A stretch of 64,000 nt of DNA from Tribonema minus (Eukaryota > Sar > Xanthophyceae > Tribonematales > Tribonemataceae), in assembly GCA_017506865.1 (NCBI GenBank), contig JAFCMP010000434.1, positions 372,001 through 436,000 on the forward strand, in the 5' to 3' direction. The notes under the pieces were generated by a model. That model was not told the DNA's origin, ran no database searches, and was given only the letters and a program-made list of their open reading frames with translations. The position numbers were made by a program, and so were the translations under genes. Below are positions 11,633-62,700 of this stretch, piece by piece (the stretch's first letter is position 1; every line of letters begins with the position of its first letter).

Positions 11633-14600
11633 TCAAGGCCTGTTGGTGTAGTAGCCCGTGTGCGCAGGGCCCGTGTAGTAGAAACCGGGAGGGCCATTCT
11701 GAACACTGCGTGGAAGAGCATGCGGGGACACGCTGATTGTACGGCGCATATGCTGCGCTTGTGCAAGCTGGTGCACTTGGGGCATTACAGCCTGCTGCCA
11801 GAACGCCATCTGCATGTACTGCTGATGTAGCATCATCTGCATGTACTGCTGGGTGGGCGGCATATGCATGTACTGTGGGGGGGGCGGCACATGCATGTAC
11901 TGCTGGGGGGGCATCATTGGTGCTGCAGCCTTTGTGAAAGGTGATGCGGCGCTGGAGGGTGCTGCGCTGACGGAGGGTGCTGGAGCTGCGGCAGTGGGGG
12001 GTGGCGACGATGCACCTTGCTTACCCTGTATATGAGCCAGCACAGCAGCCAGTGTGGCTTGCGTCGCAGCCGATGTGGCCTGCGCCGCAGTTGTGGCTGC
12101 TGCCATCTGCTCCATCGCAGCAGTCTGCCGCTGCTGCAGGATCAACATGTCTTTGCCGCAAGGCATGGCGTGCGTCCCCCCGCCGTATGTGTCTGCACCC
12201 CAGCTGCTGATGCCGCCACCGCCGGAACCGCCGCCGCTGCTGACGCTGTCGCTGGCACTAGCAGTTGCCTCCCTCCCGTACCCGTCGTTGACCCGCTGAT
12301 ACTTGGACGGGCGCAGGCAGCTGGCGTACTGTATGTTGAGCGTCTGGTTGTAGTTGGTGATTGCCGCATCTAAGCTGCTGTGGATGTCGTGCATCGCGTT
12401 CGCCAGGTACTCCTGCGCCTTTGCCATCCCCCTCGTCACCTCAATGTTGTGCGCCTGAAGAAACATGTCCGATACCCACTGATTGCGGATGGAGTAAGGA
12501 CCCCACCTGGGTATCGCGAAGTGACACATGCCCAGCTTGGTGAGGATGTTGGTGAAGGTCTTCTTCCCCATCCTCCTGTTGCTGTTGCCGTAGAGGCCGA
12601 TGACGAAGTCGGGCACAGGCTTTGCTCGGTCAGCGGCTTTGGTGGACTCGCTCTGCTGGACTTGCAGCCGCATGGTACGGCACACGAAGAGGCTGATGAG
12701 GAACATGCAGATCAGCTCCTTTGGCAGCGGAATGGAAGTGGGGAGGGGGCCGTTGAGGTTGCCGGCCCTCCCTTTGCCCTTCCCCATGGACTTCTTGTTG
12801 GTGGGCGAATCGATGGTCTGGGAGAGGCGCACGATAAAAAACAGCAGCATTTGGTAGTGTACGTCGTGACGCAAAGCTTTGCAGACACGATATGTACACA
12901 ACGAGCTCAGACAACAAAGCCATAGCGCTGCACATTCAGCAGCTGCTGCGGCATACTATGCCTTGTGCTCAGTAGAAATTAATGTTGTGTCACTCTCGCA
13001 AAGTTTCAGGCATGTCAAATAAGTAGCTTAGAGTAGTAGCTGGAAGTGTACAGTCATCGATGTCGCGGTGGAGCACCTACCTCATATGCCATACCTACTA
13101 TTAGCACTCATAAAAGCAGTGTGATGCAAGTTCTTTGTACTGTTGAAGTACACGTGCTATAGCGAATGGTATGTATAATGTGCAGATCATGCTTGGCCTT
13201 ATTTAGTTGCACGCGTTTTGCACAACAAGTCAATGGTTCGGGAGAGGCACACAAGCAACAATCATATCATCAGTGCACATCGCCATGGAAAGCCTTGCAG
13301 ACATCAGTACACCAGAGCTCAGACAGCAAAGCCATGGCGTTGCACATTAAACCACTGTTGCAACATACTGTGTTTTGTGCTCAGTTCATACTGATGTGTC
13401 AACCTTGAAACGTTTACAACAATAACAGATGAGTTGAAGTTGGGAGTATGCAGTGGTGGAGGACTTTGCCTCAAATGCCATACCTACTTAACACTCATGA
13501 AAGCAGTTTGATGCAAGTCCTTTGCACTTCTGAAGTACGTATGCTACGACAAACACACGGTTCATGCATGACCTCATCGCATGCACTATGCATAACAAAA
13601 CTAAATGGCGCCCGCAGCAGTCAAACACATCCAGCCTATCAGGCAGTTGATGGCTACATCACTCACCAGGAAAAGGCGTATCTCTCCGTTGATGATCTTG
13701 GCGAAGACGAGCGATGCTCTATTGTGCCAGACGTCCTGTTGGCGCACCGGCTTCTCCATGTAGGCAAGGAGGTGGGTGAGCAGCTCCAAGTTGCAGCAGT
13801 CGTAGAGGTTGACCTTGACTGTCTCCCGCAGGTACGCTGCCAGCTCCTGCACCCAGTCGACACCGGTAAGATGGGAGGCACCGGGCTTCTTCCCCCTGTT
13901 GGTGCCGAAGTTGTCGCTCTTGCCGCCGTTGACGAGGATGTCGCCGAGGGCGTCCAGATCCAGATCCGCCCAGGACTTGCCGTTGTCCTTGAGCCACTTG
14001 TCGATGGCGCCCTGGAACGGCCCCCACGTCCAATCCAGCATCACGCCGATCATGCGGTCGTTAACGTATTCCCAGGTGGCAGTCACTGTGTCGACGAGGC
14101 GCCCCTTGCGCAGCTTGATGTCGCCGGTGATGTTGGCGGAGTGCTCGGCCGCCTGATGGTTGCGCCAGAACTGTTGGTAGCTCTTCTGCTGCTTGTGCAG
14201 CACAGTGAAGTAGCTGGCAAGCTGCTCCCCCGCTTCTGCTGTGGTGTTGAAGTATTTGGCGGTGTGGAACAGGTATCGGGCGGCGCAGTTGATGTTGTTG
14301 ATGCTGGCGGCGGTATACTGCTCCTCCCGTACGCCAACGTCTGCCGCCTTGCAGGCTATCTCCGCTCTCACCAACGTCCAGCTGTCCACCACCTCACGGC
14401 GAGTCTTGAGATCGTAGTCCCAGACGAGGTGCGCCAGCGATGCTGGCAGGGCGCCCCTGAGGGTGATGGGAGGCTTGGGGGTACGGGCATGTTCGGGGTC
14501 GTCGACGCGAGCGGCGCCCTTGCACCGCTTCAACACGAGTTGAACCTCCGCGGGCGTGAGCAGCATGCAGCCGGCTGTGCACGTCGGAGGGCGGCCGATG

Positions 14601-59700: not shown

Positions 59701-62700
59701 CAACTCTTTCCGTCGGCAAAGACCCGTGTTTGGCGCCTGCCGCCGTGCTGCAGTGTGGTATGATGCTTGTGTGTATGCTTGTATCCTGCTACAAAGCGGA
59801 GCATGTACATAGCGCTCAGGCAACGTGAGCTAGCCATGCCCACTACAAAGTTCTGTGCGCATGCGACAGGCGTGCCTTTGGGCAGTGTGCCTATGAGAAA
59901 CAGAGCCTCCAAGAACGGTTCAACATGTCACGGTGCCAACAGCGCATGCGTCAGCAACATTTAGCGAATGCGCTCTCACTGCCCGAGTGTCCGTGTTTTT
60001 CTCACGTCTGGCACACGCGTGCAGCGCATCTGCTCCCAAAGTCCCCCACCAAATTGCCACTGTCGCAGCACGCCATGCATACCTACCTGCATACATGCAC
60101 GTCGTGCCCGCAGCAGAATTGTTTTGGGCGCCGTATTGGCACTGTCATGACCTCTTGAGCCGTTGAGACTGGCTCACGCATGAGCTCGATGTGACCTGTT
60201 TAAACATGTTACATGGCTCAGCAACCAGCGGACGTGCTCAGAAACACATCATATTCATCCCCCACAAAAGCGTACGTACGATGCCATTGACCCCGGCCTG
60301 CTGCTGCAAATTTGTGTGAGCGTTTGTCGCTTTTGCGTGCTGGTACAGGTATGACATTCCGCTGGTGATCAAGGTGAGCGGGGCATACACTTCAAGTCGA
60401 AGTACATGCATCATCGGGTGCATGTTGTGAGGCACATGTAGTATCGGAAGAGGGTACGTGTATGATGGGGGAAAGGGGTGCTACAACACGCAATTACATG
60501 CACTGTCCGCCTGTGTCTCCAAAGGAACCCCTGCACTGCCTTTCATCATGACTGCGATCACCTGTTGATTCATCTTACGCAGGACACAGCTACACCACCA
60601 GGCTTGCAGCTTGGCCCCGACCGACCAACCACTTTTATGTGACGCGGGCGATGCCTGAAGCTCCCTGCTGCCGTTCCTGACCCCACACGCTACTTGTTGA
60701 CAAGCATTTCTTCAGTGACCCTCTGCTCCACCGAAACCGTCGCGCCTACTTCACTTCAACTTGCGCAGGACGTGGTCCTCGACAGCAGGCTCCATACATT
60801 GAAGCTCACATGTACTTCCACCCATTGCATCGCCAGTCAATGACGTTGGACACTCTGAGACTCAGACTTGTGACTCACCGGCACCCTCCCGTCACCTCAA
60901 CTTGTGCAGGATGTGGTTCTCGACAGCAGGCTGGGCGCAGGGGGACGCCTCCCCCTCATCTACCAGGGGGGCTTCCGCCCACACGTCGGCAACGCTCACC
61001 AGAACAACATCTACGGGTGAGACCATAACTCTCACTCTGACTCTGACTTGTGACTCTAGCTCTGACTGTGACTCTGAGCCCTCATACACATTGGTGCGCT
61101 TGCCGGGCTGTATGGCTGAGACCCTGACTCCAACTCTGACTCTGGCTTTGAGCGCACACGTCAGCAACGCTTGCGAGGACAAAACCTACTGCTGAGATCA
61201 TGACTCAAAGTCTGACTTTGCCTCTGTGCGCGCACTCTGGCAGCGTTCACCATGCCAACGCCTACCGGCGATCTCGACCCTGTGCATTCAGGAACTCAAA
61301 AGTATGCTGTGACATGCATGACTTGAAGTTGTTTACACTTGTGGTTGGTCTTTGTAGGTGTTCTTGTGAGTTGCTCTTTGAGATGCACATAGGCTTCAGC
61401 AACCAAACGCGGAGGCAGCTTTTTCTCGCCATGCCATGTGGTACCACAAGTTTGCAAGGCGCGCGATGAGCCTGTGTGCCTGTGCACAGCACAGCGCACA
61501 GTGCAGTGCGGGGGGCTCCAGCGAAGGGCATTTGCTTGTACGGTGGCATCGCGCAGCAGAGAGACCCTTGCAAGGAAGATCAGGCAGGCCCAGTCAGGAG
61601 CGTCACCAGCAGAAGTTTCCATTCCCTCTGACCCTGTCCGCAAAACGTGGTTCTCACCTCACTACATTTGCTTATGATGTGCCAACGATCGGTCGCTTTC
61701 TACTACTACTTACAAAGCGTGCATCAGTTTTTTAAGATGTCTCTCACACATCCGACGCGTCGCCGCTCCAACCTTCGCCGCACTCCCTTCTGACTTACAA
61801 CCATAACTCCACTCGTGTGCGCGCAGTGATGTCCAGCTGGTGAACGGCAGGCCATGGCCGTTCCTCAAGGTGGAGCGTCGTACCTACCGTTTCAGCCAGC
61901 TGGTGGCCTCCAACAGCCGCCAGTACAGCATCAAGTTTCTCGCGGAGACCGCCGATGGCCTGACGCAGGCCTGGGTTGACTTCTATCTCATCGGTGAGAG
62001 CCAGCAGCAACGCTCAGAGCACATTGCAATTGCAGGTCGCGCGTACGCCGATGATATGCGTGAGGCCGTGGCGTTGTGCGTTGTGAGCGAGGATGAAAGC
62101 AGCGCTCAGTGCATGTTGAATCTGCACGAGGCATGTGCGCAAACCGCCTGTTCACCGCAGGCTGTTGTGTGCCGAGGGTCACGCAGGCGCTCGCGCAGTT
62201 CCAGCACAGTTTTTTGGCTACCTGCACGCGCAGCGCGTGTGCGTCCTGTGTTCAGGCGCTCGCAGCGGTTAAGGTCGGCATGCTTGTGATCACCAGAGAC
62301 ACGTACGCTTCAGCCGTAAGGTGGCGACATGCTACGGTCTTGGGGCATGGTGGCTGAAAGCCTGCGTGCGCCCCCCCTCCAACAGCTCTCGGCCTGTATA
62401 CAGCACGTGTGCTTCCATGTGCAGTGCTGCGTACCGGACGTCTGCGGCGATGTCTGAGTAGTTTTTTTGTTTTTGTTGCTGAGGTAACATATGCAATCGC
62501 ACATCTGCTACCAAGAGCAGGCTCCCCATCATTGTCAGATAATGCACATTCGATGCATTCCCTCATGTCCAGAACTAGTTTTACATTTCGAAACACGTAT
62601 CATTGTCCCAAGCCCAAACGTAAACTAACCATACGTTAAATACCTACATACCCCCGCAGGCAGTGACGGCGGTCAGCTGCAGGTCGCGCGGAAGCTGCGC

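Follow-up and report, generated by a model that had tools for sequence, protein, structure and literature searches.

How do introns come to carry copies of the edges of their own exons, and do they grow by this route? The question is raised by a stretch of 64,000 nucleotides (nt) of the Tribonema minus genome (assembly GCA_017506865.1, contig JAFCMP010000434.1, positions 372,001 to 436,000, forward strand), the whole of which is referred to here as the window. Its genes include one that we take to be NOP58 and two paralogues, A and B, that we take to be oxidases; these labels come from sequence reading without a database match. At many of their junctions, the neighbouring intron holds a copy of the adjoining exon edge together with its splice signal, which we call an echo. 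The echo effect is real, oriented, and widespread across the three gene families sampled. The copies probably reflect frequent small head-to-tail tandem duplications that straddle splice junctions, become hidden in introns, decay there, and add length.

The intron set (n = 143) comprised 27 oxidase, 63 kinesin, and 53 dynein introns from the 158-Mb assembly of 554 contigs. Under an ungapped-match cut-off, which served as the main echo call, at least one echo was present in 53 of the 143 introns (oxidase, 15/27; kinesin, 22/63; dynein, 16/53). The intron on the adjoining side was matched by the exon edge in 65 of 283 cases (32/142 and 33/141), whereas the intron on the other side was matched in just 1 of 146 (0/73 and 1/73). 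Inverted, i.e., reverse-complement, matches numbered 0 of 283 (0/142 and 0/141), as did matches to an unrelated intron, drawn once at random for each junction (0/142 and 0/141). In a first subset of 80 introns (27 oxidase and 53 kinesin), a gapped shuffle test set the 40-nt exon edge against its own intron; z exceeded 5 at 21/80 donors and 26/80 acceptors, and exon interiors reached this level in 5/127 cases. Among these, the oxidase introns had z > 5 at 9/27 donors and 11/27 acceptors. Because the matches are almost confined to the correct side and to the direct orientation, they point to head-to-tail tandem duplication rather than dispersed copying. Local copy-paste, or templated insertion, was tried as a separate candidate and is ruled out by the wrong-side and inverted controls.

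These counts depend on gene models of differing precision. Oxidase models were assembled from conserved blocks located with tblastn and a purpose-written spliced profile aligner, which yielded GT-AG exons; a few of their ends are GC or doubtful, and in oxidase A an exon end was moved by hand from 40170 to 40167. The junctions of NOP58 (28.7–33 kb in the window, by sequence reading) were placed by eye, some of them with an error of one or a few bases. Both oxidases lie on the + strand, with modelled spans of 36–45 kb (A) and 54–67 kb (B). Low-complexity matches were filtered out, and two introns at truncated loci, in which an echo had been mistaken for the junction (C516 donor 751540 and C146 acceptor 876996), were removed from the counts. 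Cut-offs were picked in the course of the analysis rather than preset.

A first-pass annotation of the window had proposed that donor echoes always lie downstream and acceptor echoes upstream, with periods of mostly 80–180 bp. Both statements agree with the larger sample, the first through the adjoining-side and wrong-side counts above and the second through the nearest-echo period, which falls within 80–180 bp at 48 of 67 junctions. Its figure of about thirty echo junctions in the window was too high: the echoes themselves stand, but the strict cut-off gives about 20, to which the gapped shuffle test adds a few. The proposed tendency of copies closest to the exon to be best conserved survives only as a weak trend (40 of 65 pairs, with 2 ties). 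Occurrence on both strands holds for the kinesin and dynein introns, whose echoes lie outside the window; the claim of echoes in the minus-strand copy B was not established, as the tandem arrays present at 15.6–18.3 kb are not tied to exon edges. By the ungapped criterion, echoes stand at 16 oxidase junctions in the window. The count is 9/26 for oxidase A and 9/28 for oxidase B, two of the latter lying beyond the window in L042, and NOP58 has an echo at 4 of 8 tested junctions (donors, 3/4; acceptors, 1/4). The junctions are as follows, all on the + strand:

29559..29890, +, NOP58 donor at about 29621: two downstream echoes, offsets 116 and 250
30468..30944, +, NOP58 donor 30551: three downstream echoes, offsets 126, 257, and 400
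31239..31843, +, NOP58 acceptor at about 31782: three upstream echoes
31950..32222, +, NOP58 donor 31980: downstream echoes, offsets 114 and about 213 (the latter in one of two analyses)
37866..38157, +, oxidase A donor 37916: two donor echoes
38612..38883, +, oxidase A acceptor 38827: upstream echo
38904..39162, +, oxidase A donor 38996/38997: gapped donor echo, shuffle z 17.6, under the ungapped cut-off
40395..40612, +, oxidase A acceptor 40546: upstream echo
41335..41509, +, oxidase A donor 41367/41368: echo at +135, 40/40 nt identical (33 exon and 7 intron nt)
41557..41835, +, oxidase A acceptor 41779: upstream echo in which AG reads GG
41921..42136, +, oxidase A donor 41945: donor echo
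43191..43350, +, oxidase A donor 43210: donor echo
44219..44573, +, oxidase A donor 44291/44292: two donor echoes
44777..44939, +, oxidase A acceptor 44887: upstream echo
54858..55061, +, oxidase B acceptor 54990: upstream echo
55694..55943, +, oxidase B acceptor 55921: upstream echo
56735..56899, +, oxidase B acceptor 56865: exact tandem echo, period 81
56942..57373, +, oxidase B donor 57034: donor echoes
58508..58630, +, oxidase B acceptor 58579: upstream echo
60729..60932, +, oxidase B acceptor 60910: upstream echo
60977..61241, +, oxidase B donor 61016: donor echo

At the acceptor shared by the two oxidases (38827 in A, 56865 in B), each echo is nearest to the exon of its own gene, which suggests separate events. 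At the shared donors 38997 and 44292 and the shared acceptor 44887, the A and B exons are closer to each other than the A exon is to the A echo; thus, no single history follows. Outside the gene models used, the window also contains tandem arrays of period 49–170 at 15684–18336 and 19923–20202, a stretch near 20249–20515 with matches at some twenty other genomic sites, and, at 412–5337, an open frame of 1641 codons with putative reverse transcriptase motifs, recognized by eye.

In total, 105 echoes were found at 67 junctions of the intron set. The exon part has a median length of 56 nt at donors and 41 nt at acceptors, the intron part 17.5 nt and 31 nt, respectively, and 96 of the 105 alignments cross the junction itself. 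Among the 67 nearest echoes, 15 are exactly tandem, with source and echo abutting within 16 nt (the copies overlap by at most 16 nt or stand at most 14 nt apart), and 7 belong to overlapping arrays. Most copies are 75–95% identical to their source, and a few reach 97–100%. Duplications lying wholly inside the flanking exon, searched up to 200 nt, were absent from all 143 introns' flanks. The flanks inspected for 14 echoes contained no obvious long match, at breakpoints blurred by age.

Several sequence features of these introns were recorded alongside. Words such as TTGAAGTT and AACTTCAA are over-represented in the sampled introns (TTGAAGTT, 33 observed vs 3.8 expected) and occur also at window 30560–30740; the density of TTGAAGTT-like words is 0.020 in the spacers between source and echo, 0.026 in the intron part of duplicated sources, and about 0.008 in other intron sequence. 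Telomere-like TTAGGG/CCCTAA runs occur within introns in either orientation (G-strand, 25/143; C-strand, 26/143); the sampled exons and three further stretches of the window had none. Runs of the TTAGGG type stand in the window at 38361–38389, 46896–47237, 50472–50503, and 57779–57807. As filler at breaks, such runs were rejected, since spacers are not enriched in them. Some modelled kinesin and dynein donors are GC rather than GT, e.g., C113:1066902 and C514:493729, and GC is found in 7/49 donor echoes.

A pair of light-harvesting genes, present as recent paralogues on contigs C79 and C1 with exons about 90% identical, illustrates this type of duplication event directly. At the exon-2 edge of gene 1, 57/60 nt are the same in both; C79 has a single acceptor, whereas by-eye reading of C1 gives three copies arranged head to tail. 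Each C1 copy consists of about 60 nt of exon plus the C-rich intron end that is present once in C79. Gene 2 likewise has repeated copies in C1, and in C79 it is without a self-match of at least 60 nt. The C1 echoes match their own exon at 56/59 and 57/58 positions. The assembly holds 92 exon-wise matches to the light-harvesting domain, which makes a photosynthetic alga the most likely source; eight group probes for its 18S gave no placement. Of six light-harvesting paralogues, one carries an extra intron with a short flanking repeat, absent from the other five (L078 950–1247, C511:1486149–1486446; GCGCAG/gtgcgt ... gcgcag/GTCC, with slashes at the junctions), which looks like a recent intron gain. 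L085 (C70:84400–85600) and L086 (C489:5300–6500) share 1166 identical nt on two contigs and are perhaps a haplotype duplicate remaining in the assembly.

Once formed, the copies appear to be free of constraint. For echoes with a confident reading frame, the echo-exon mismatch rate at codon positions 1, 2, and 3 is 0.104, 0.097, and 0.176. The near-equal rates at positions 1 and 2 indicate that the echo is not maintained as coding sequence, and the excess at position 3 is attributable to silent change in the exon itself. In most alignments, source and echo agree at about 80% of positions across their intron parts, a level that suits two neutral copies. Where both bases are aligned, the splice dinucleotide is kept in 39/49 donor echoes (GT) and 36/45 acceptor echoes (AG), close to the neutral expectation at a per-site identity of 0.88. 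As far as sequence comparison can tell, echoes are thereby shown to decay neutrally beside a constrained exon copy. Median intron length rises from 526 nt with no echo to 682 nt with one and 833 nt with two or more, and length correlates with echo number (rho 0.40, p 7e-7); since introns with more echoes are longer, existing introns appear, from this correlation, to lengthen by echo duplication. The competing idea of intron birth by AGGT duplication was examined in register, comparing the intron head with the downstream exon head and the intron tail with the upstream exon tail, and it found no support: 0/140 introns reach 60% identity over 30 nt in either comparison. Together, the length trend and the missing birth signature fit the first-pass view that existing introns appear to grow, as opposed to the birth of new ones.

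The preferred reading can be set out as a sequence of steps. Small head-to-tail tandem duplications, with a period of mostly 80–180 bp, would be frequent in this genome. A duplication internal to an exon would harm the protein and be lost. When one straddles a junction, the exon-proximal copy would go on working and the other would be hidden in the intron, downstream of a donor or upstream of an acceptor, as the observed positions indicate. The hidden copy would then decay neutrally, in line with the mismatch patterns, and each event would lengthen the intron by one period, a step for which the length correlation speaks. The excess at exon edges would arise if breaks, nicks, or copying errors were commoner at or near exons, or if copies there were kept more often. 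The lack of visible long flanking homology would fit duplication by end joining or fill-in better than unequal crossing-over. Tandem duplication across splice sites, as originally proposed for the window, is supported by the geometry of the echoes, by the 15 exact tandems and 7 arrays among 67, by the C79/C1 pair, and by neutral decay.

Whether the junction itself attracts duplications is a separate matter, and here the simplest account is survivorship: tandem duplications would fall uniformly, exonic ones would be purged, and junction-straddling ones would be the visible survivors beside those internal to introns. Such internal duplications do occur (42 merged loci in 33/143 introns, against 67 echo junctions), none was seen in the flanking exons, and exon constraint prolongs the detectability of edge echoes, the relative detection power for a neutral pair versus an exon-echo pair being 0.59. 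After correction for power and target size, however, the ratio of edge to internal rates is still 2.05 (95% confidence interval 1.29–2.88) with a 134-nt unit and 4.18 (2.61–5.84) with a 78-nt unit. For young duplications it is 13 (3.4–105) and 27 (7–214), based on 19 edge and 2 internal events (19 and 4 when unmerged); the power correction is modelled, and constraint on the exon copy tilts the young class to edges. In addition, 40-nt windows have a local copy in 29–30% of cases when centred on a junction vs about 13–25% at least 300 nt inside the intron. The excess at edges over intron interiors means that survivorship alone may not explain the echoes, and we regard it as a real but minority possibility. 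The modelled ratios suggest a bias of duplication toward exon edges in some genes, less certain than the other results. A stronger version, which we hold only tentatively, would make splice junctions mutational hotspots for small tandem duplication. The driver would be linked to exons, transcription, or splicing (breaks, nicks, RNA-DNA hybrids, or positioned nucleosomes), and introns would extend outward from their exon edges by recurrent steps of about 80–180 bp.

A number of results weigh against the preferred reading. Windows 120–140 nt inside exons also have local copies at 0.25–0.27 (7/28 and 6/22), and 20 of 40 gene bins are without an echo, many of them with only 2 junctions; the clustering by gene (p 0.001) is not what a uniform process gives, with the caveat that these are coordinate bins, in which genes are possibly split or merged. 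The link between length and echo number is possibly confounded, longer introns having more room. The C1 echoes match the C79 exon (55/59 and 56/58) about as well as their own; the echoes may thus predate or postdate the split of the paralogues, and C79 may have lost copies. Of the 67 nearest echoes, 45 are set off from their source by 21–395 nt of non-matching spacer, and among the 38 spacers tested (at most 200 nt long), 26 show no residual similarity to the far side of the echo. Some spaced echoes are young, with exon parts 97–100% identical, namely those at oxidase A 41368 and at a dynein donor on C508 (C508:333956; 97%, with a 112-nt spacer); near-identical copies beside non-matching spacers imply that plain tandem duplication does not account for everything. 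In the single paralogue-polarized case, the added DNA seems, by eye, to combine filler with a duplicate. These features suit an insertion with a long target-site duplication: the long overhangs of a break would be filled in and its ends joined through filler DNA, each echo being one flank of the target duplicated around the insert and exact tandems being the events without filler. At oxidase A 41368, the 95-nt spacer, the only one of 45 searched genome-wide, has no second copy, and the resemblance to the start of the paralogue's intron (by eye) lies in what follows the echo and not in the spacer. Conversely, 12 of the 38 spacers do show the residual similarity of a decayed exact tandem (p ≤ 0.02), and later indels or rearrangements could yield spacers too. 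We consider this route quite possible, if somewhat short of an even chance. It is unlikely that echoes are selected as decoy or back-up splice sites tuning splicing: a usable GT or AG, with exon-like sequence next to it, survives in most aligned echoes, and edges are enriched over intron interiors, but codon positions 1 and 2 mismatch about equally, at the rate of an unconstrained copy, GT/AG retention is no better than that of the rest of the echo, and half of the gene bins have none. Carriage by introner-like or other mobile elements is very improbable, given that exon edges never matched the unrelated introns drawn, one per junction, and that the one spacer searched had no second copy; the repeat-flanked extra intron of the light-harvesting paralogue described above indicates that intron insertion may also occur. 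An assembly artefact seems hardly credible: a few copies are 97–100% identical, and an 18S copy seems by eye to carry short indels, but most copies are 75–95% identical with a codon-phase mismatch pattern, and echoes recur in 20/40 gene bins on the correct side only.

To our knowledge, intron lengthening without transposons is poorly documented. Here, the steps of growth would be readable, with 53 of 143 sampled introns bearing decaying copies of their own exon edges and a paralogue pair differing by one versus three copies. The genome may therefore serve as a natural laboratory for intron growth and for the choice of the spliceosome between near-identical sites about 100 nt apart. If the junction bias is true, a mutation process would be linked to gene structure. 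The echoes are also a warning for gene finding, as the aligner twice took one for a splice site at truncated loci.

Related events have been reported in several systems. In the potato RdRp gene, a single tandem duplication crosses an intron-exon boundary at the acceptor (PMC4974935). Like the acceptor echoes, it spans the acceptor, and its upstream copy is partly intronic; it differs in concerning one gene and a new intron with a new donor, whereas here 67 sampled junctions, donors and acceptors alike, are involved and existing introns are apparently lengthening (PMC4974935). The AGGT model of intron gain, as summarized in a review (PMC3443670), shares the tandem duplication of exon sequence concealed by splicing. 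It predicts intron ends that resemble the flanking exons in register (PMC3443670); such ends are absent in the 140 introns compared here. For a possible mechanism, fill-in by CST-Pol alpha with end joining at breaks with 3′ overhangs yields small tandem duplications in human and mouse cells, direct and local as the echoes are (PMC8355091). Those breaks were made by Cas9 in cell culture, and the abstract draws no link to splice junctions (PMC8355091). In Tribonema, this pathway is a candidate. In Lipomyces, duplication of a donor element within an existing intron has been proposed for the formation of [D] stwintrons, a likeness to the donor echoes, although these are nested introns at one position and exon-edge arrays do not figure in the abstract (PMC7138796). 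The introner elements of Amoebophrya, another protist genome with repeated sequence at intron boundaries, are described as shared families with inverted repeats and direct repeats of 3–5 nt, whereas the copies here contain about 20–120 exon nt and are seemingly private to each junction (PMC7789003). Within the open full-text literature searched (titles and the starts of abstracts, with most subscription papers outside), nothing was found that describes genome-wide exon-edge echo arrays, echoes this dense, or introns growing in this way. Tandem duplication across an intron-exon boundary is already known in single cases; its recurrence at this density, together with apparent intron growth, may be new.

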